A DNA stretch of 64,000 nt from an uncultured Pelagibacteraceae bacterium (GTDB lineage Bacteria > Pseudomonadota > Alphaproteobacteria > Pelagibacterales > Pelagibacteraceae), in NCBI GenBank assembly GCA_902615435.1, contig CACMOZ010000001.1, positions 62,001 through 126,000 of the forward strand, read 5' to 3'. Each line of letters opens with the position of its first letter. Within the stretch, counting starts at the first letter, position 1. Positions 4,772 to 23,126 of the stretch are shown here, piece by piece. The translations under genes and the position numbers were made by a program. Below the pieces are notes generated by a model. It searched no databases. It was not told where the DNA came from and saw nothing but the letters and a program-made list of their open reading frames with translations.

Positions 4772-5233
4772 ATGTTTTTATCAAGTTACGAAAACAGAAT
4801 AGACAAGAAAGGTCGTGTTTCAGTGCCAGCAACATTTAGATCTCATTTAAATTCTATGGGTTATAATGGTTTTATTGGTTATCCCTCTTTTAACCATAGC
4901 GCGCTTGAGGCTTGCTCCCAAGATAGAATAGAAAAATTATCTAATACGATAGACTCCCTAAATCCTTTCGAAGAAAAAAGAGATTTTTTTGCTACATCAA
5001 TATTATCTGAGAGTGAAAATTTGCAATTTGATACCGAAGGAAGGGTTTCTTTATCTGCAAAATTGTTAGATCACGCAAAAATTAAAAATAATGTTTTATT
5101 TGTAGGTCTTGGTAAAACTTTTCAAATTTGGGAGCCAAAAATTTTTGAGAAATTTAGAATTGTTGCTCGAAAAAAAGCTTTTCAAAATAGATCCAATTTA
5201 AAATGGGAAACAAAACAGAAGGGAGAAGTATGA
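4772..5233 (+). CDS. mraZ: MraZ transcriptional regulator / division cluster protein
   Basis: MraZ is an AbrB-fold DNA-binding protein that represses its own dcw operon. The 153-residue product shows both tandem SpoVT/AbrB-like halves: FLSSYENRIDKKGRVSVPATFR at the start and NLQFDTEGRVSLSAKLLDHA near residue 90. The second half carries the usual LFVGLGKTFQIWEP. It opens the dcw operon and has matching TGGG repeats upstream. Its stop overlaps the ftsZ start as ATGA, so the two are translationally coupled. Confidence 0.93.
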   Translation: MFLSSYENRIDKKGRVSVPATFRSHLNSMGYNGFIGYPSFNHSALEACSQDRIEKLSNTIDSLNPFEEKRDFFATSILSESENLQFDTEGRVSLSAKLLDHAKIKNNVLFVGLGKTFQIWEPKIFEKFRIVARKKAFQNRSNLKWETKQKGEV

Positions 5234-6720
5234 GTATAAATATTGGAGGAGGAGAACTGAGAGAATTAAAACCAAGAATATTAGTTTTAGGGGTTGGAGG
5301 CGCTGGAGGAAATGCCATTAATGCTATGATAGACTCTGGAATGGAAGGAGTTGAATTTGTAGCAGTAAATACTGATGCACAAGATTTGAAAATGAGTAAG
5401 GCGCACGCAAAAATTCAAATAGGAATGAATTTAACAAAGGGACTAGGGGCAGGTGCTAAGCATGATATTGGCCAAGCGGCAGCTGACGAGTCATTAAATG
5501 AAATTACAAGCTATATGCAAGGTGCAAACATGGTGTTTATAACTTCAGGAATGGGCGGAGGCACAGGCACTGGAGCTTCGCATGTAATTGCGAAAGCCGC
5601 AAGAGAGTTAAATATTTTGACAGTGGGTGTCACTACACTACCTTTTTCTTATGAGGGCCCAAAAAGGATGAGGCGGGCAGTTGAAGGACTAGAGGCATTT
5701 AAAAAACATTTAGATACAGTCATTGTTGTACCCAATCAAAATCTTTTTAAAATTGCTAGCGAAACAACTACATTTGAAGAGTCATTTAATTTATCTAACA
5801 ATGTTTTAAAGCATGGTGTTCAAAGTGTCACTGACTTAATGGTAAGACCAGGCATGATAAATTTAGATTTCGCAGATGTTGAAACTGTAATGAGTTCTAT
5901 GGGTAAAGCTATGATGGGAACCGGTGAGGCAGAAGGAGACAATAGAGCAATGGCAGCAACTGAAATTGCATTAAACAATCCTCTCATTGATGAGTATTCT
6001 TTAAAAGGAGCTAAAGGTTTATTAATAAATATAACAGGTGGAAACGATTTAACTCTTTTTGAAGTAGATCAATCAGTAAATAAAATTAGAGCTGAAGTGG
6101 ATCCAGAAGCTGAATTAATTTTTGGTGCTATTAAGGATGAGAGCATGACTGGAAAAATAAGAGTATCAATAGTTGCAACAGCACTTGATGGTTATAAGTC
6201 TGAGAATAAAACAGTCCTTAACATGGTTTCACGAATACAAAATAGAAACACAGGTTATTCTGAAAATTTATTTTCTCATAATCCAAGAGTAGAAAAAAAT
6301 ACATTGAGTTCAATTGATGGTGCTACAGCCTTAAAACTTGATGAAAGTTACGAAGTAGATGAGGAGCAAAACAACACTGCGAGTAATATAAATAATGTCG
6401 TGAATAGCAATCACTCAATTGAAGAACCAAATCAAAGAGAGAGAATTTTAGATAATGTTGCTACTGGTGTTTCGATTGAAAGTGCTTCTTATATGGAGAA
6501 TAATAATTTTGATGAAAGTGAAACTTCAGCAGATATACCCGAACTAAATGAGGAAGAGTATACTCCAAAATTATTTTCAGAAGATCAAAGCTATGAGTCA
6601 GATGAAAATCTAGCACCAGAAGATTTAGATAAAAATGATAATGATCAATTATTTGATCAAGAAATAAATGATGAGGAAGATTTTGAAATTCCCGCATTTT
6701 TAAGAAAACAAAAGTTTTAA
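5230..6720 (+). CDS. ftsZ: Cell division GTPase FtsZ
   Basis: FtsZ polymerises into the cytokinetic ring and recruits the divisome. The tubulin signature GMGGGTGTG is at about residues 107-115. The N-terminal LVLGVGGAGGNAINAM, the T4-T7 loops and the C-terminal tail peptide EIPAFLRKQ (which binds FtsA and other partners) are all intact. I start it at the ATG at 5230 (MSINIGGG), with GGGAGA just upstream, rather than at the upstream frame extension. It has 496 residues with a long acidic linker (about 320-485). The location is unusual: it sits between mraZ and rsmH, whereas most dcw clusters have ftsZ after ftsA. Here ftsA is followed by lpxC instead. Confidence 0.97.
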   Translation: MSINIGGGELRELKPRILVLGVGGAGGNAINAMIDSGMEGVEFVAVNTDAQDLKMSKAHAKIQIGMNLTKGLGAGAKHDIGQAAADESLNEITSYMQGANMVFITSGMGGGTGTGASHVIAKAARELNILTVGVTTLPFSYEGPKRMRRAVEGLEAFKKHLDTVIVVPNQNLFKIASETTTFEESFNLSNNVLKHGVQSVTDLMVRPGMINLDFADVETVMSSMGKAMMGTGEAEGDNRAMAATEIALNNPLIDEYSLKGAKGLLINITGGNDLTLFEVDQSVNKIRAEVDPEAELIFGAIKDESMTGKIRVSIVATALDGYKSENKTVLNMVSRIQNRNTGYSENLFSHNPRVEKNTLSSIDGATALKLDESYEVDEEQNNTASNINNVVNSNHSIEEPNQRERILDNVATGVSIESASYMENNNFDESETSADIPELNEEEYTPKLFSEDQSYESDENLAPEDLDKNDNDQLFDQEINDEEDFEIPAFLRKQKF

Positions 6721-8077: not shown

Positions 8078-9773
8078 AAATTCAAATCAAACAAGTTTTT
8101 ATTTTGAAGATTACATTGAAACAAATAAAAAAAATAAAATTTTAAATAAAACAAATAATTTTCAAGATAGAATATATCTTTTATTTTTTTTCTTTTTTTC
8201 TTTAATATTAATTTTTTCAATTAAAATTATCCATATATCCTTAGATAAAAAAAATAATTTCTCATTAGAGCAGAAAAAATCAAATTTTTCTTTATTACGT
8301 AGAGATATAGTTGATAGAAATGATGTGATAATATCTAGAAATATTGATACTTATCACGTTTCAATTAATCCTAATCAAGTAAAAGATAAGAAAAACTTTT
8401 TAATAAAGTTAAGATTAAGTTTTCCGGACCTTCCAATAAATGAAATAAAAGAGAAATTAAATGGTAAAAAGTATTTCCGCTTAAAAAAGAGGATAGATCA
8501 AGTTGAAAAAAGAAAGTTTTGGGCTTTAGGAGAAAAAGCCATTAAGTTCGAACCTTTTCAGGCAAGGATGTATACTCATGGTAATTTATTTAGTCATATT
8601 ATTGGCCAGGTGGATTATGATAATTATGGTATATCCGGAATTGAAAAATATTTTGATAGAGAGCTGAAAAATAAAAATCTAATAGACCAACCTTTAAAAT
8701 TAACTTTAGACAGCAATATTCAGTACATCATTAATGAAGAGTTAAAAAATGCCGTTAAAACTTTTAGTGCAACTGGTGGAGGCGCTTTGTTAATGAATGT
8801 AAATAATGGTGACATAATATCCTTAGTTTCACTTCCAAACTTCAATATCAATCAAAGATTAACTATTAAAGATGAAAAATATATTAATAAAATTACAAAA
8901 GGAGTTTATGAACTTGGTTCAATTTTTAAAACCTTTACAGTAGCTTTAGCATTAGAAAATAAATTAGTAGATACAAGCACAATTATTGAAAATATTCCTA
9001 GAAAAATTAAATGTTCTATACATGAAATAACAGACATGAAGGAACATCCAAAGAATTTATCAGTTGAAGATATTTTAATTAGGTCATCTAACGTTGGTTC
9101 TGTAATTTTAGCGCAGAAAGTAGGAGAAAAAAAATATAAGGAATTTATTAGTAAAACAAAATTAACAAAAAACCCATCAATTGAATTAGAGGAGGTTGGA
9201 ACACCACATCAATTAAAATGGAATAGATGTAAATTAGAAACAATCTCATTTGGACACGGTATTACCACAACCCCCTTGCAAGCGACTGCTTTGTACGCTG
9301 CAATGAGTAACGGCGGTAAAATAATTACTCCTAGTTTAATTAAAGTTAGAGAAAATAAAAATTTAGATAGAATCATTTCTCATCAAACAAGTCATCAAAT
9401 AAGAAGCATTCTAAGAAAAGTAGTAAATGGTGAAGATGGAACGGCAAGTTTGGCAGACAAAAGCGGATATTATGTTGGAGGAAAAACCGGCACAGCAGAA
9501 AGCTATGGTGATAAAAAAAATAGGATAAATACATTTATCTCTATTTTTCCAACTGTCGAGCCAAATTATACTTTGTTTGTGATGTTAGAAAATCCTAAAA
9601 TTAATAAAAATCTTATTTACAATTATAGAGGAGTTAAAACTAAGGCTCCCTACAACACGTCTGGTTGGAATTCTGTTTATGTTGCAGGCAAAATAATAGA
9701 AAAAATTGGACCAATTTTAGCCATAAATAAAAAAGAGTTTAGTGATCAACATGTTGTTGAAAAATTTAATTAA
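8052..9773 (+). CDS. ftsI: Septal peptidoglycan transpeptidase FtsI (PBP3)
   Basis: FtsI crosslinks septal peptidoglycan in complex with FtsW. The 573-residue product has a cytoplasmic basic start, one membrane helix (about residues 47-65) and the class B PBP pedestal starting with RRDIVDRNDVIISRN. The penicilloyl-serine domain has all three motifs: S290-I-F-K, S345-S-N347 and K478-T-G. The length matches the family. It overlaps ftsL at the start and murE at the end (up to 32 bp), so translation is probably coupled through this whole stretch. Confidence 0.95.
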   Translation: MKKKSKKNKNSNQTSFYFEDYIETNKKNKILNKTNNFQDRIYLLFFFFFSLILIFSIKIIHISLDKKNNFSLEQKKSNFSLLRRDIVDRNDVIISRNIDTYHVSINPNQVKDKKNFLIKLRLSFPDLPINEIKEKLNGKKYFRLKKRIDQVEKRKFWALGEKAIKFEPFQARMYTHGNLFSHIIGQVDYDNYGISGIEKYFDRELKNKNLIDQPLKLTLDSNIQYIINEELKNAVKTFSATGGGALLMNVNNGDIISLVSLPNFNINQRLTIKDEKYINKITKGVYELGSIFKTFTVALALENKLVDTSTIIENIPRKIKCSIHEITDMKEHPKNLSVEDILIRSSNVGSVILAQKVGEKKYKEFISKTKLTKNPSIELEEVGTPHQLKWNRCKLETISFGHGITTTPLQATALYAAMSNGGKIITPSLIKVRENKNLDRIISHQTSHQIRSILRKVVNGEDGTASLADKSGYYVGGKTGTAESYGDKKNRINTFISIFPTVEPNYTLFVMLENPKINKNLIYNYRGVKTKAPYNTSGWNSVYVAGKIIEKIGPILAINKKEFSDQHVVEKFN

Positions 9774-12513
9774 ACATATTTCAGGCAATGACGGGAACAC
9801 CATCGTTTCTGGCCTTTCAATTGATAGCAGAAAAATAAAAAAAAATAATATTTTTTTCGCTATAAATGGAAATAAATCTAATGGTGAAATTTACATAAAA
9901 GAAGCAGTTTCTAAAGGGGCATCAGTTATTATATGTTCAACCAATTATAAATTTAATCACAAAAATACTGTCATAATTAAAACTAAAAATATCAGAGGAT
10001 ATTTAAGTGAAGTATCTTCTAGGTTTTATAGGCATAAGCCCAAAAATATATTCGCAGTTACTGGAACTAATGGAAAAACATCTGTGGCCGATATATTTTA
10101 TCAATTGTTAAGATTAAATAAAGTTCCAGCTGCATACATCGGTACCTTAGGAATTAAATATAACAATAAAATTATAAAAACTGATCTAACATCACCAGAT
10201 TCTATTTACCTTCATAAATGCTTAAACTTTTTGAAAAAAAAAAAAATAGATAACGTTATAATAGAAGCCTCAAGTCATGGGTTGGATCAAAAACGGCTAC
10301 ATAATATTAGTTTTAAAGCTGGGATATTTACAAATTTAAGTCAAGACCATTTAGATTATCATAAAACTATGAATTCCTACCTTAATGCAAAACTAATTTT
10401 GTTTAGAGAAATTTTAAAAAAAAGGTCTTCAATTATTTCTGATAAAGAAATTATGCCGTTTATAAAATTAAAAAAAATATCTCAACAAAAAAAATTAATA
10501 TTAATTGATATTAATAAAAATCTAGAAAAAATTAAAAATTTTTGCAGCGAAAGAATGAATAATTTTAAAGTTAAAAATTTAGCAATGGCAATAGAAGCTG
10601 TAAAATTATGCGGACTTAAAGATAAAAACATATATAAAAATTTAAAAAAAATTAAAGATGTCAGTGGAAGAGTTGAACTAGTAAAAAGCTTTAACAATAA
10701 TATAAAAGTATTTATTGATTATGCTCATACACCTGATGCTTTATTTGAAACTACGAAATATTTAAAAAATAACTATGGAAATAATATTTCTATAGTTTTT
10801 GGTTGTGGTGGTGATAGGGACAAAAAAAAAAGACCATTAATGGCAAAGATAGCAAATAAAAATTCTACAAAAATCTATTTAACTGATGATAATCCAAGAA
10901 ATGAAGATCCAAAAAAAATAAGAAACGAACTTAAAAAATATATTTCAAAAAATAAACTTTTCAATATTGGCAACAGGGGCTCAGCAATTAATAAAGCTAT
11001 TCAAAATGCCGATCCAAATGAAATAATTTTGATTGCAGGTAAAGGGCATGAGGAAAAACAAATTTATAAAAACAAAGTATATAATATTTCAGATAAAAAA
11101 ATCGTAAAAAAAATTAAAAAGTTAAAAAAAAATCTCAATAAAAAACATCAAAAATTTTTACATAATAAACTTATATTAAAAAAATTATTAGGAAAAACTA
11201 AACAAGTTAATTTTGAAGGGCTTTCAATTGACTCAAGACTTGTAAAAAAAGATAATTTATTTTTAACTATTAAAGGAAAAAAAAACAATGGAGATAATTT
11301 TATAAATGATGCTTTAAAAAAAGGTGCTGGATGCATCGTCACAGTTTCTAAAAACAAAAAAAAAATAGATAAAATTATAAAAGTAAAAAATACAATCTCA
11401 TTTTTAAATAGTTTTGCTAAACTAAAAAGAGAAAACTCTATAGCAAAGATCATTGCTATTACAGGAAGTGCTGGAAAAACATCTCTTAAAAATTTATTAA
11501 GTGATCTTCTAAATGAGTACGGAAAGACATATTCTTCTCCAAAATCTTTTAATAATCAATTAGGTGTTCCTATTAGTCTATCAAATTTAAGTTTTGAGGA
11601 TAAGTTTGGAGTTTTTGAAGTTGGAATGAGTAAAGCTGGAGAAATAAGAAAATTAAACAAATTAATCAAACCGCATATTGGTGTAATAACAAATGTTGGT
11701 GAAGCTCATTTAGAAAACTTTAATAATATAAAAGGAGTAGCTAAAGCAAAATCAGAAATAATAGAAAATATTCAAAAAGGAGGAACCATCATTTTAAATA
11801 GAGATGACAAATTTTTTAATTTTTTTAATAAAAAAGCTGTCATGCATCAATTAAAAATTGTTACTTTCGGTAAAAATAAAAAATCTGATTTCTGTGTCGA
11901 TCAAATCCTTAAAACAAAAAATAGTTCTAATATAATAATCAAAATTAAGAATAAAAAAATCAATTTTGAAATACAAGATCTAAATATTTATAATGTTCTA
12001 GCGTCTTTTGCAGTCCTGTCAGAACTAGGATTAAATCTAATAAAAATAAAATCTAAACTTCAAAAGATTAGACCATCTGATGGTAGAGGAAAGCAACACA
12101 TCGTGAAAAGATATAAGAAAAAATTTAAATTTATAGATGAAAGTTATAATGCCAACCCACTTTCAGTCAAAAATGCAATCAGTAGATTAAATTTAATTAA
12201 AAAAGGAAAATCAAAAAAATATTTGATATTAGGAGATATGCTTGAATTAGGATTTAAATCAAAAAAATATCACAAAGATTTATCAAAAGTTATTAACAGT
12301 TCAGATATAGACAAAGTATTCGTTAAAGGGAAAAAAACAATTTTCACATATAAATATTTGAATAAAAAGAAAAGAGGAAATATTTTACAAAATTTTAATG
12401 ATATAGATTTTAGTTTAAACGAAATGATATCAAATAATGATTATCTTATGATTAAAGGATCAAATGCAACAGGTCTCAATGAATTCAGTAAAAAGCTAAC
12501 TAAAGGAATATAA
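9742..12513 (+). CDS. murE-murF: Fused MurE-MurF peptidoglycan precursor ligase
   Basis: This single 923-codon frame joins two ligases that are normally separate. The first half (about 1-465) is MurE, adding meso-diaminopimelate to UDP-MurNAc-L-Ala-D-Glu: FAVTGTNGKTSVADI at about residue 107, HTPDAL, and the meso-DAP signature DNPRNEDP. After a short lysine-rich linker (about 450-475) comes MurF, adding D-Ala-D-Ala: GLSIDSR, ITGSAGKTSLK near residue 573 and ILGDMLELG. Both ATP loops are intact, so both activities are expected. The start may be GTG 9742 or ATG 9751; the former is closer to an AAGAG ribosome site. The two reactions are consecutive, which suggests substrate channelling. Confidence 0.95.
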   Translation: MINMLLKNLIKHISGNDGNTIVSGLSIDSRKIKKNNIFFAINGNKSNGEIYIKEAVSKGASVIICSTNYKFNHKNTVIIKTKNIRGYLSEVSSRFYRHKPKNIFAVTGTNGKTSVADIFYQLLRLNKVPAAYIGTLGIKYNNKIIKTDLTSPDSIYLHKCLNFLKKKKIDNVIIEASSHGLDQKRLHNISFKAGIFTNLSQDHLDYHKTMNSYLNAKLILFREILKKRSSIISDKEIMPFIKLKKISQQKKLILIDINKNLEKIKNFCSERMNNFKVKNLAMAIEAVKLCGLKDKNIYKNLKKIKDVSGRVELVKSFNNNIKVFIDYAHTPDALFETTKYLKNNYGNNISIVFGCGGDRDKKKRPLMAKIANKNSTKIYLTDDNPRNEDPKKIRNELKKYISKNKLFNIGNRGSAINKAIQNADPNEIILIAGKGHEEKQIYKNKVYNISDKKIVKKIKKLKKNLNKKHQKFLHNKLILKKLLGKTKQVNFEGLSIDSRLVKKDNLFLTIKGKKNNGDNFINDALKKGAGCIVTVSKNKKKIDKIIKVKNTISFLNSFAKLKRENSIAKIIAITGSAGKTSLKNLLSDLLNEYGKTYSSPKSFNNQLGVPISLSNLSFEDKFGVFEVGMSKAGEIRKLNKLIKPHIGVITNVGEAHLENFNNIKGVAKAKSEIIENIQKGGTIILNRDDKFFNFFNKKAVMHQLKIVTFGKNKKSDFCVDQILKTKNSSNIIIKIKNKKINFEIQDLNIYNVLASFAVLSELGLNLIKIKSKLQKIRPSDGRGKQHIVKRYKKKFKFIDESYNANPLSVKNAISRLNLIKKGKSKKYLILGDMLELGFKSKKYHKDLSKVINSSDIDKVFVKGKKTIFTYKYLNKKKRGNILQNFNDIDFSLNEMISNNDYLMIKGSNATGLNEFSKKLTKGI

Positions 12514-19355: not shown

Positions 19356-20286
19356 AAAAAAATTTAAAAAAGTTTTAGTTGTTCTGGGTGGTACATCTGG
19401 TGAAAGAACTATCAGTTTAGAAAGTGGTAGAGCATGTATAAAGGCACTTAAAAAACGCGGATACAAGGTATCAACGTTTGATCCAAAAGTGAGAAATTTT
19501 AATCTAATAGACAAAAAAAAAATAGATGTTATTTTCAATGCCTTACACGGTAGAGATGGCGAAGATGGTGTTGCTCAAAGTTATTTTGAGTATTTAAAAA
19601 TTCCATATACGCATTCAGGGGTTGTAAGCTCGTTTAATGCTATGAATAAGATTATATCGAAAGAAATATTCATAAAAAATAATATCAAAACTCCAAAATT
19701 TATATCAATTAATAAATCAAATTTTCATAAAAACTTAGTACAAAGACAATTAAGTCAAAAGACAATAAGATTTCCAATAGTTTCAAAACCAATTAATGAA
19801 GGATCTAGCCTTGGTGTTGTTGTTTGTAAAAATAAAAAAAAACTTTTTAAAACAATTAAAAATTTATTAAAAAAATATGATAATTTAATTATCGAAGAGT
19901 ATATTGGCGGGCAAGAAATTCAAGCAGCAGTGATTAATGGTGAACCGATCGGCGCAATAGAATTAATTCCTAAGAGAGAATTTTATGATTATAAGGCAAA
20001 ATATACAAAAAAGGCAAAGACACAACATGTAATGCCAGCAAGGTTGTCTAAAAAAAAATATAATCAGGTTTTGAAAATTTCAAAAAAAACACACAAAATA
20101 TTAGGGTGCAGAGGAGTAACTAGATCAGACTTTAAATTTTATAAAAATAATTTTTATTTGTTAGAAATAAATACACAGCCTGGGATGACAAGTTTATCTT
20201 TAGTACCAGAGATATCAAATTATAAGGGTATATCCTTTGAAGATTTAGTTGAGAAAATTTTACTAGATGCAAGTATTAATAAATGA
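19348..20286 (+). CDS. ddl: D-alanine-D-alanine ligase
   Basis: Ddl joins two D-alanines, the substrate of the MurF half encoded upstream. The ATP-grasp landmarks are LGGTSGERTISLESG, ALHGRDGEDGVAQ, KPINEGSSLGV, EEYIGGQEI and LEINTQPGMTSLS. I start at the GTG at 19348, inside the end of murB (8-bp overlap); a TTG one codon earlier is also open. At about 312 residues the length is typical for the B type. Confidence 0.94.
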   Translation: MSKKKFKKVLVVLGGTSGERTISLESGRACIKALKKRGYKVSTFDPKVRNFNLIDKKKIDVIFNALHGRDGEDGVAQSYFEYLKIPYTHSGVVSSFNAMNKIISKEIFIKNNIKTPKFISINKSNFHKNLVQRQLSQKTIRFPIVSKPINEGSSLGVVVCKNKKKLFKTIKNLLKKYDNLIIEEYIGGQEIQAAVINGEPIGAIELIPKREFYDYKAKYTKKAKTQHVMPARLSKKKYNQVLKISKKTHKILGCRGVTRSDFKFYKNNFYLLEINTQPGMTSLSLVPEISNYKGISFEDLVEKILLDASINK

Positions 20287-20939
20287 CTAAACGTTTTATT
20301 ATAGGGATCTCCCTTTTAATTTTATTTACAACATTTATCTCCCAAAAAGAAATTACAATCGAAAAATTTAAAATTAAAATTATTCAAATTGAAAATAACA
20401 ATTTATTATCTGAAACAGATATTAAAAAAGAGCTATTAAGTATTTATAATGAGAATCTTGTTTTCATAAATTTAGATAAAGTTAAAAAAATTCTTAGACA
20501 AAATACATATATAGAGAGTTTTCAAGTTAAAAAAAAATATCCTGACATTTTGATAATCAAAATTTTCGAAAAGAAACCAATTGCAATTTTACAAAAAAAA
20601 AAAGAAAGATTTTATTTAAGTGAAAAAATTGAACTAATTAAATTTGAAAATTTACATATATATAAAGATCTTCCAATTATATTTGGCAATGAAAAAGATT
20701 TTCAAATTTTTTATTACAATTTAAAAAAAGTTAATTTTCCTTTAGAATCAATTAAAAAATATTATTTTTTTGAGTCGAATAGATGGGATTTAATTACTCA
20801 AGATGAAAAAACTATCAAACTCCCATCAATAAATTACATTGAAAGTTTAAAAAACTTTTTAGATATTAAATATCGTAACGAATTTAAAAAATATAAAATT
20901 TTCGATTATAGAATTGATGACCAATTAATTTTAAAATGA
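20283..20939 (+). CDS. ftsQ: FtsQ divisome protein
   Basis: FtsQ is a bitopic membrane protein linking FtsL/FtsB to the rest of the divisome. The 218-residue product has one N-terminal membrane helix (residues 4-19) and a POTRA domain (IIQIENNNLLSETDIKKEL through VKKKYPDILIIKIFEKKPIAIL, about residues 34-100). A beta domain follows with WDLIT and the C-terminal YRIDDQLILK. The family is weakly conserved; the POTRA pattern plus the ddl-ftsQ-ftsA order support the call. It overlaps both neighbours by 4 bp. Confidence 0.88.
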   Translation: MTKRFIIGISLLILFTTFISQKEITIEKFKIKIIQIENNNLLSETDIKKELLSIYNENLVFINLDKVKKILRQNTYIESFQVKKKYPDILIIKIFEKKPIAILQKKKERFYLSEKIELIKFENLHIYKDLPIIFGNEKDFQIFYYNLKKVNFPLESIKKYYFFESNRWDLITQDEKTIKLPSINYIESLKNFLDIKYRNEFKKYKIFDYRIDDQLILK

Positions 20940-22135
20940 ACGCAAATATTTTAAAGCCAAGATTATTTATTGAAATTTATTTTAAACAATTTGTTTTTAT
21001 AGTCGCTAAGATCGATGAAAAAAATGAACTTGTTTCTATCGATAAGTTTGTTGTACCAGTATTAAATTTTGATAAGTCTAATATTTTTAATTACGAACTT
21101 TTTTCAAAAGTTTTAAAAGAAAATATTTTTTCATTAGAAAAAAAATTTAAATGCATATTTAAAGATGTTTTCTTAATTCTAAATGACTTTAATATAACAT
21201 TCATTAATTTTACTGGATTTAAAAAATTAAATGGATCTCAAGTTTTGAGAGAAAACATTACTTACATTTTAAATTCACTTAAATCTTCTATAAATGATGT
21301 TGAAAGCAAAAAAACTATTTTACATATATTTAATTCTAATTTTTTTTTAGATAAACAAAAAATTATTAATCCACCGATTGGTTTATTTGGTGACCTCTAT
21401 GCTCATGAATTATCATTTTGTTTAATCAATAATAATGACTATAAAAATTTAGATAACATTTTTAATTTACAAAATTTAAAAATTAAAAAAATTTTTCTAA
21501 AAAGTTATGTGGAGGGAGCTTACATTAGCAATATGAATCCTGGGATTGATACTTTTTTCTATATAAAAATTAACGAAAACAACTCAAAAGTTTTTTACTT
21601 TGAAAATGATGCTTTAAAATTTGAACAAAATTTTGATTTCGGTTTTGAAATTATTTCAAAAGATATTTCAAAAATAACATCACTTAGTCTAGAAACTGTA
21701 AAAAAAATCATTTCAAAATTTAAATTTAATAGCAAAATACCTGAGAGTGAACTTATAGAAAAAAAAATTCTTGAAGGAGAAATAAATAAAAAAATAAGAA
21801 AAAAGTTAATTTATGAAATTGCATTTGCAAGAATAAAAGAAATTGCTGAAAAAATTTTATTGAAAAATATTAATTTTAAAAATTTTGTTGAAACATCAAG
21901 TATTATTTTTTTAGAACTTACTGACAAATCTCATTATGATAACATGAAAGAGTTATATGATATTTCGTTTTCTCCGAAAGAAAATGAGCTAAAATATCTT
22001 GAAAATTTTTCAACTGAAGTTGCAGTAAACAACCTTAATAAAATAGTCCAATTTGGTTGGAAAAAAGAGGCTATACCTATAGCTAATGTAAAAAAATCTA
22101 TAATTTCTAGGTTTTTTGAAACATTGTTCAATTAA
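20936..22135 (+). CDS. ftsA: Highly divergent FtsA-like divisome protein
   Basis: FtsA tethers FtsZ filaments to the membrane. This 399-residue protein has the right place after ftsQ and the right length. Some FtsA landmarks are visible: NPPIGLFGDLYAHELSFCLI near residue 140 and the C-terminal amphipathic helix IISRFFETLFN for membrane binding. The actin-type nucleotide motifs are degraded. The N-terminal GxDxGT loop reads FIEIYFKQFVF, and the second phosphate loop DIGGGTT is replaced by PGIDTFFYIKINE. ATP binding is therefore doubtful. In most bacteria ftsZ follows directly; here it lies 14 kb upstream. This is the last gene of the overlapping dcw transcript. Confidence 0.82.
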   Translation: MNANILKPRLFIEIYFKQFVFIVAKIDEKNELVSIDKFVVPVLNFDKSNIFNYELFSKVLKENIFSLEKKFKCIFKDVFLILNDFNITFINFTGFKKLNGSQVLRENITYILNSLKSSINDVESKKTILHIFNSNFFLDKQKIINPPIGLFGDLYAHELSFCLINNNDYKNLDNIFNLQNLKIKKIFLKSYVEGAYISNMNPGIDTFFYIKINENNSKVFYFENDALKFEQNFDFGFEIISKDISKITSLSLETVKKIISKFKFNSKIPESELIEKKILEGEINKKIRKKLIYEIAFARIKEIAEKILLKNINFKNFVETSSIIFLELTDKSHYDNMKELYDISFSPKENELKYLENFSTEVAVNNLNKIVQFGWKKEAIPIANVKKSIISRFFETLFN

Positions 22136-22199: not shown

Positions 22200-23126
22200 A
22201 TGCAAGAAATTTATCAAAAAACAGTTTCTACACCCGTAAGTTTTAAAGGCGTAGGGCTTCATTCTGGGAAAAATTGTAAGATTACTATTTTACCAGCAGG
22301 CAATGACCAGGGAATCATTTTTAAAAGAATAGATTTAAGTAAAAATAACATCATAAAAGCCAATTATGAGAACGTATCCTCAGCTAAATTATGCACAACA
22401 CTAGAAAATGCATTTAACGTTAGAGTTTCAACTGTTGAACATCTATTAGCAGCTTTATACATCAGAGGAATTGATAACGCGATAATTGAAATTGATAATG
22501 AAGAAGTGCCGATCATGGATGGATCAGCTAAAGATTTTTCAAGAGTATTTAAAAAATTAAAATTGAAAGTTTTAGAAAAGAAAAGAAAATTCTTAAAAAT
22601 TTTAGAGAAAATTGAACTTAATTTTGGAGAAAAGAAAATATCTATAGAACCAAGTGAAAGTCTTAAAGTTGATTTTACTCTTAATTACAAAAATAAAATA
22701 ATAGGAAACCAAAGAAATTTAGTAGACTTTAAAGAAAATAATCTAAATAAAATTATTGAGTCGAGAACTTTTTGTTTATTTGAAGATATTGAAAGTATAA
22801 AAAAACTTGGTTTAGCTAAAGGTGGGTCTTTGGATAATGCTATAGTAGTTGGTGCAGACGAGGTGCTAAATAAAGAAGGGCTAAGAAATACAAAAGAATT
22901 CGTAAATCACAAAATTCTAGATTTAGCTGGGGATTTTGTATTATCAGGATTTAGAATTTGTGGGAAAGTAATATGTAATCAAGGTGGACATGAGTTAACA
23001 AATATGTTTTTAAGAAAAATATTTAAATTAAAAGATAGTTTTACAATAATAGAAAACGAAAAAGTCAATATTACTGGAAAAACACTTAATTCTTACCAGT
23101 CAAATAAGATTGCTGTTAACGCTTAG
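22200..23126 (+). CDS. lpxC: UDP-3-O-acyl-N-acetylglucosamine deacetylase LpxC
   Basis: LpxC is the zinc amidase for the committed step of lipid A synthesis. I start it at the ATG at 22200 (MQEIYQKTVSTPVSF), not at the upstream frame extension. This gives 308 residues and leaves a 64-bp spacer after ftsA. Motifs are GVGLHSGK, TVEHLLAALY with a zinc His, EVPIMDGSA with the conserved Asp, and HKILDLAGDF with zinc and catalytic residues. No strong ribosome binding site is visible, and it could be read from the dcw transcript. Confidence 0.95.
   Translation: MQEIYQKTVSTPVSFKGVGLHSGKNCKITILPAGNDQGIIFKRIDLSKNNIIKANYENVSSAKLCTTLENAFNVRVSTVEHLLAALYIRGIDNAIIEIDNEEVPIMDGSAKDFSRVFKKLKLKVLEKKRKFLKILEKIELNFGEKKISIEPSESLKVDFTLNYKNKIIGNQRNLVDFKENNLNKIIESRTFCLFEDIESIKKLGLAKGGSLDNAIVVGADEVLNKEGLRNTKEFVNHKILDLAGDFVLSGFRICGKVICNQGGHELTNMFLRKIFKLKDSFTIIENEKVNITGKTLNSYQSNKIAVNA

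Follow-up and report, generated by a model that had tools for sequence, protein, structure and literature searches.

The open reading frame at positions 20936–22135 (+ strand) of the window, the 64,000-nucleotide stretch of SAR11 DNA analysed here, encodes a 399-residue FtsA ortholog with an eroded nucleotide site. FtsA is normally an ATP-binding relative of actin. In the genus to which the window belongs (g1), which includes the isolate HIMB058, the protein probably serves as a nucleotide-independent adaptor: its ATP site would have been abandoned in the common ancestor of g1 and its sister genus g9, with selection acting on what was left as a passive adaptor.

All three nucleotide motifs are lost from the window FtsA, the first of them retaining only its acid. 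The former phosphate-1 loop (FIEIYFKQF, residues 11–19; 20966–20992, + strand) keeps E13 at the position of E. coli E14 but has Tyr-Phe in place of the Gly-Thr of E. coli (G16-T17), the equivalent residues in relatives being mostly Asn-x. With this acid in place, and a Glu here in E. coli FtsA too, phosphate-1 has lost its Gly-Thr but not its acid, and to that extent the original prediction of an eroded first loop needs qualifying. The former phosphate-2 segment (YIKINENNS, residues 209–217; 21560–21586, + strand) lacks the DxGGGTT pattern, as had been anticipated. K211 stands at the position of E. coli D210, which is occupied by Lys, Glu, Gln or Asn in relatives without any consensus, and G212 is replaced by Asn. 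The former adenosine region (residues 326–334; 21911–21937, + strand), a loss additional to the two listed originally, has LELTDKS in place of the motif, without Gly-Gly, and belongs to the fastest-evolving part of FtsA.

The alignment of orthologs that had been suggested as a check reveals that this erosion is genus-wide. Among 90 g1 sequences, the phosphate-1 pattern [DE]xG is found once and the phosphate-2 (DxG) and adenosine (GxG/A) patterns not at all, such that the complete set is present in 0/90 compared to 24/24 other alphaproteobacterial FtsAs, a reference set that is circular in having been preselected by motif pattern. The set is also present in 30/30 other alphaproteobacterial FtsAs chosen without a motif filter, two phosphate-2 entries of which returned no call owing to a narrow pattern. 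On these counts, the motif loss in g1 exceeds chance. Other divergent alphaproteobacterial FtsAs mostly keep their motifs. Those of the f2 family (L073, L079, L109 and L085) are partly eroded, with AIDIR (AIDIRADK) or LQVG at phosphate-1, an IDIQ-type phosphate-2 (IDIQKNKT) and GYGA (GYGAKS) or GEGA at the adenosine motif. An eroded FtsA-like protein from another alphaproteobacterial family (L344; genome of about 1.4 Mb) has the motifs ISIGD, VNID and GECS and lacks the Arg of the pair that binds FtsZ.

A candidate replacement for bound Mg-ATP is provided by K189 (21500–21502, + strand), which is Lys in 95 of 102 sequences and is proposed to form a salt bridge with E13. It occupies the position of A188 in E. 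coli FtsA, a residue close to the Mg ion (PMC10213515). An acid at 13 is paired with a base at 189 in 92/102 sequences and the charges are swapped (K13/D189) in two more; the exceptions often come from the HIMB058-like lineage. The charge pairing is significant in a Fisher test that ignores kinship (p = 1.4e-4), and the covariation is modest, ranking about 1000th among 75,466 column pairs (MI-APC). The pair is therefore no more than suggestive of an internal salt bridge that stands in for Mg-ATP.

ATP or another nucleotide might still be bound through non-canonical residues, with the actin switch rewired. The survival of E13, matching the Glu of E. coli, and the confidently predicted overall actin fold are in keeping with this, but we consider it unlikely: the phosphate-2 Asp position drifts among Lys, Glu, Asn and Gln, the adenosine region evolves faster than any other, the sequences share no new glycine-rich loop, and the residue equivalent to E. 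coli A188, close to the Mg, is a bulky Lys.

The distribution of the eroded form across SAR11 places its origin. In a tree of FtsZ and LpxC, g1 and g9 are monophyletic with 100% support and both possess an eroded full-length FtsA, whereas the FtsAs of g5, g7 and g8, which share the locus, gene order and ftsZ relocation of g1, are intact (DIGS, IDFGxDKTS and GxGS). In g6, presumably Pelagibacter, some genomes encode a long FtsA with the motifs (e.g. G046) and many others have lost domain 2 entirely (e.g. G047). The resulting proteins of ~233 residues (L092, L093, L095, L099, L102 and L320–L339) are not recognised by Pfam, but hhalign matches them to residues 2–195 of the long g6 FtsA (99.8%, E=1e-28). 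They resemble g1 FtsA in lacking the nucleotide site and in keeping the locus, domain 1 (1A and 1C) and the membrane helix; they differ in that domain 1 is joined directly to this C-terminal helix, a separate event having removed domain 2 in full, and with it subdomain 2B, which binds FtsZ. An intact short frame was found in about 55–60 of 80 g6 genomes, the genomes searched being mostly those without an FtsA by TIGR01174. The domain 2 deletion in g6 is independent of the erosion in g1 and g9. Since one lineage eroded the site in place and the other separately deleted domain 2, the sequences indicate at least two losses of the ATP site within SAR11.

Apparent further shrinkage of g6 FtsA to 27–179 residues was rejected, as these frames mostly reflect contig ends, and in six genomes with matches to neither FtsA nor LpxC the locus most likely fell into an assembly gap. 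Two genomes are real exceptions, with a frame break in the short ftsA: G053 (closed, 1,343,202 bp), where it is split into 75 and 174 residues (L098), and G174, where the parts are 64 and 161 residues long (L225). These frame breaks are possibly pseudogenes or sequencing errors.

In g1 the gene is being maintained. A match to ftsA is present in 125 of 169 g1 genomes and is full-length and stop-free in about 108, the remaining genes being split by contig ends or missing from incomplete genomes. All 80 named orthologs are 376–402 residues long without stops, in line with the expectation that the length of FtsA had been kept. Sequence identity within the genus is 33–53%, and dN/dS for the closest ortholog pairs is 0.11–0.34, which points to purifying selection on FtsA across g1. 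A pseudogene or an error in the window is excluded by the number of intact genes, the low dN/dS and the genus-wide motif loss.

What is conserved lies outside the nucleotide site. Subdomain 1C (SHS2; residues 86–165; 21191–21430, + strand) is the slowest large region and has the lowest pN among the regions compared (mean 0.22), followed by the C-terminal tail (0.25), with the adenosine region fastest at 0.50. In subdomain 2B, R299-IK-E302 (21830–21841, + strand) is located on the predicted FtsZ-tail-binding face and corresponds to E. coli R300/E303, known from work on the E. coli and T. maritima proteins as FtsZ-tail contacts. R299 and E302 are invariant in 102/102 sequences and in 90/90 of the g1 motif set, and none of the full-length FtsAs of the motif comparison, whether from SAR11 or from other alphaproteobacteria, lacks the pair. 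D139, G152 and the G, W, E, A and P of GWKKEAIP (22055–22078, + strand), the motif preceding the terminal helix, are invariant as well, the last of these in 81 orthologs; traces of it (SEALP, KEIP) occur in other SAR11 genera. The C-terminal amphipathic helix (22097–22132, + strand; residues 389–398 in the AlphaFold2 model), predicted to be membrane-targeting, is real, and the original claim that it had been kept is borne out. Of 80 orthologs, 89% end in 12 residues whose amphipathicity exceeds that of 95% of shuffled versions, although for the window protein alone the margin is weak, as 10% of shuffles score equally high. Selection has shifted to 1C, the amphipathic helix and R299/E302. In published work, deleting 2B abolishes FtsZ binding of FtsA, and 1C is responsible for FtsA self-interaction and for recruiting later division proteins (PMC4281207).

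The same data bear on the idea that selection on FtsA is relaxed, the protein being on its way out of SAR11 as a weakly useful remnant kept chiefly for the sake of 1C and its membrane helix. The fast evolution and low identity within the genus, the loss of domain 2 from many g6 genomes and the broken short ftsA in g6 would all be expected from this, but dN/dS is far under 1, about 108 genomes are free of stops, and R299/E302, D139, G152 and GW..EA.P do not vary, making it a quite improbable account of the g1 protein.

The identity of the protein is secured by its locus, family matches and fold. As had been noted, the position of FtsA is preserved: ftsQ (POTRA_1; 20283–20939, + strand) is the upstream neighbour and lpxC (about 22200–23126, + strand), at a place that ftsZ takes in most alphaproteobacteria, the downstream one, in an otherwise ordinary dcw cluster of the order mraZ, ftsZ, rsmH, transpeptidase (at the ftsI position), murE-murF, mraY, murD, ftsW, murG, murC, murB, ddl, ftsQ, ftsA and lpxC, several of these names being based on order and sequence alone. 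In this cluster, murE and murF are fused in a 923-residue frame (9742–12513) that scores 799 bits against the bifunctional MurE/MurF family NF008896 (cut-off 1023). The best family match of the frame is to FtsA (TIGR01174), with 85 bits (E=4.6e-24), under the cut-off of 175.85 bits that only 10/197 genomes of the order reach. The Pfam SHS2_FTSA match of the window protein is slightly under its cut-off; this domain is found in 61/81 orthologs and the Pfam FtsA actin domain in 10/81. A profile of the 81 orthologs matches the E. coli FtsA structure (PDB 7q6d) with E=5e-17. Structure prediction, the other check originally suggested, gave an FtsA actin-like fold with inserted 1C (AlphaFold2; pLDDT 86.7, pTM 0.84), for which the top 19 Foldseek matches in the PDB are FtsA (TM 0.52–0.62), with PilM next. 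These TM scores leave room for an altered domain arrangement in the modelled protein. Because HMM, profile and structure comparisons agree, the frame is a true FtsA ortholog. An unrelated or repurposed protein at the ftsA position, for which the rarity of the Pfam actin domain and the sub-threshold equivalog scores might speak, is close to refuted and scarcely credible given the SHS2_FTSA, profile and Foldseek matches and an FtsA-like locus and C-terminal helix. No second FtsA was detected in the window genome, which is 87% complete; the remaining matches are weaker and look like other actin-superfamily proteins.

The partner of FtsA is encoded at a distance. In the window, ftsZ (5203–6720, + strand; TIGR00065, 371 bits) lies ~14 kb upstream of ftsA and keeps its C-terminal peptide DFEIPAFLRKQKF; wherever a SAR11 FtsZ is complete, it retains this tail (EDFEIPAFLRKQKF in the window). 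Whereas ftsZ is near ftsA in 27/30 other alphaproteobacteria, this is so at 0/80 loci of the g1 genus, and in all SAR11 with both genes on one contig ftsZ is ~15 kb upstream. The original prediction linked the erosion to this separation, a connection that fails: the relocation is shared by g5, g7 and g8 with their intact FtsAs, so it is older than the erosion and is ruled out as its cause. As neither SepF nor ZipA was detected in the 35 SAR11 genomes searched for them, FtsA remains the sole known candidate for tethering FtsZ in g1.

The further proposal that FtsA here acts as an ATP-independent tether fares better, its supposed coincidence with ftsZ relocation aside: a canonical site lost throughout the genus, with 1C, the Arg/Glu pair and the helix kept under purifying selection, is how such a protein would be expected to look. 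We infer that a nucleotide-independent adaptor would work as follows. The amphipathic helix would anchor FtsA at the membrane, 2B would bind the conserved FtsZ tail through R299/E302, and 1C would contact later division proteins. Such a protein would bind the membrane and assemble constitutively, with no nucleotide switch, and the E13–K189 pair may keep the cleft closed in place of Mg-ATP.

Experiments on other FtsAs show what such a change would entail. The E. coli D210A mutant no longer complements or forms A-rings, A188V retains 19% of the ATPase, and E14R and S84L are membrane-bound in any nucleotide state, yet fail in division (PMC10213515). These sites therefore matter, and membrane binding is separable from nucleotide. 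In S. pneumoniae, both polymerisation and membrane attachment of FtsA require ATP binding (PMC5832921). Losing the ATP site thus harms FtsA function in both E. coli (PMC10213515) and S. pneumoniae (PMC5832921). Given the requirement in S. pneumoniae, the SAR11 protein must have come under a different regulation, and some compensating change would have had to occur. We put forward more tentatively, as a possibility somewhat short of even, that SAR11 FtsA has turned at least twice from an ATP-driven actin into a nucleotide-free adaptor, by erosion with an E13–K189 lock in g1/g9 and by deletion of domain 2 in g6, where the core would be 1C and the membrane helix and FtsZ would be tethered in an undescribed way.

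The g1 protein is like canonical FtsA (E. coli 7q6d; T. maritima 1e4g/4a2a) in its locus, length, 1A-1C-2A-2B organisation, Arg/Glu pair and amphipathic helix, but it lacks the phosphate-1 Gly-Thr, the phosphate-2 Asp and Gly and the adenosine Gly-Gly, and has gained a conserved Lys at the A188 position. The nearest experimental parallels to our reading are E. coli E14R and S84L, with an impaired ATP site and nucleotide-independent membrane binding (PMC10213515); these mutants, however, retain much ATPase and are non-functional in division, whereas the SAR11 protein is a natural, sole FtsA. Neither the eroded g1 form nor the short g6 form was reported in the open literature searched.

It has long been asked whether ATP makes FtsA a polymer, a switch or neither. 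A conserved FtsA that naturally lacks an ATP site, in bacteria as abundant in the sea as SAR11 and with a cultured relative in HIMB058, makes it possible to test which functions require nucleotide. The half-actin FtsA of g6 sharpens the question, since these cells do without even the subdomain known to bind FtsZ. Our analysis suggests that one branch of SAR11 divides using an FtsA that works without ATP.
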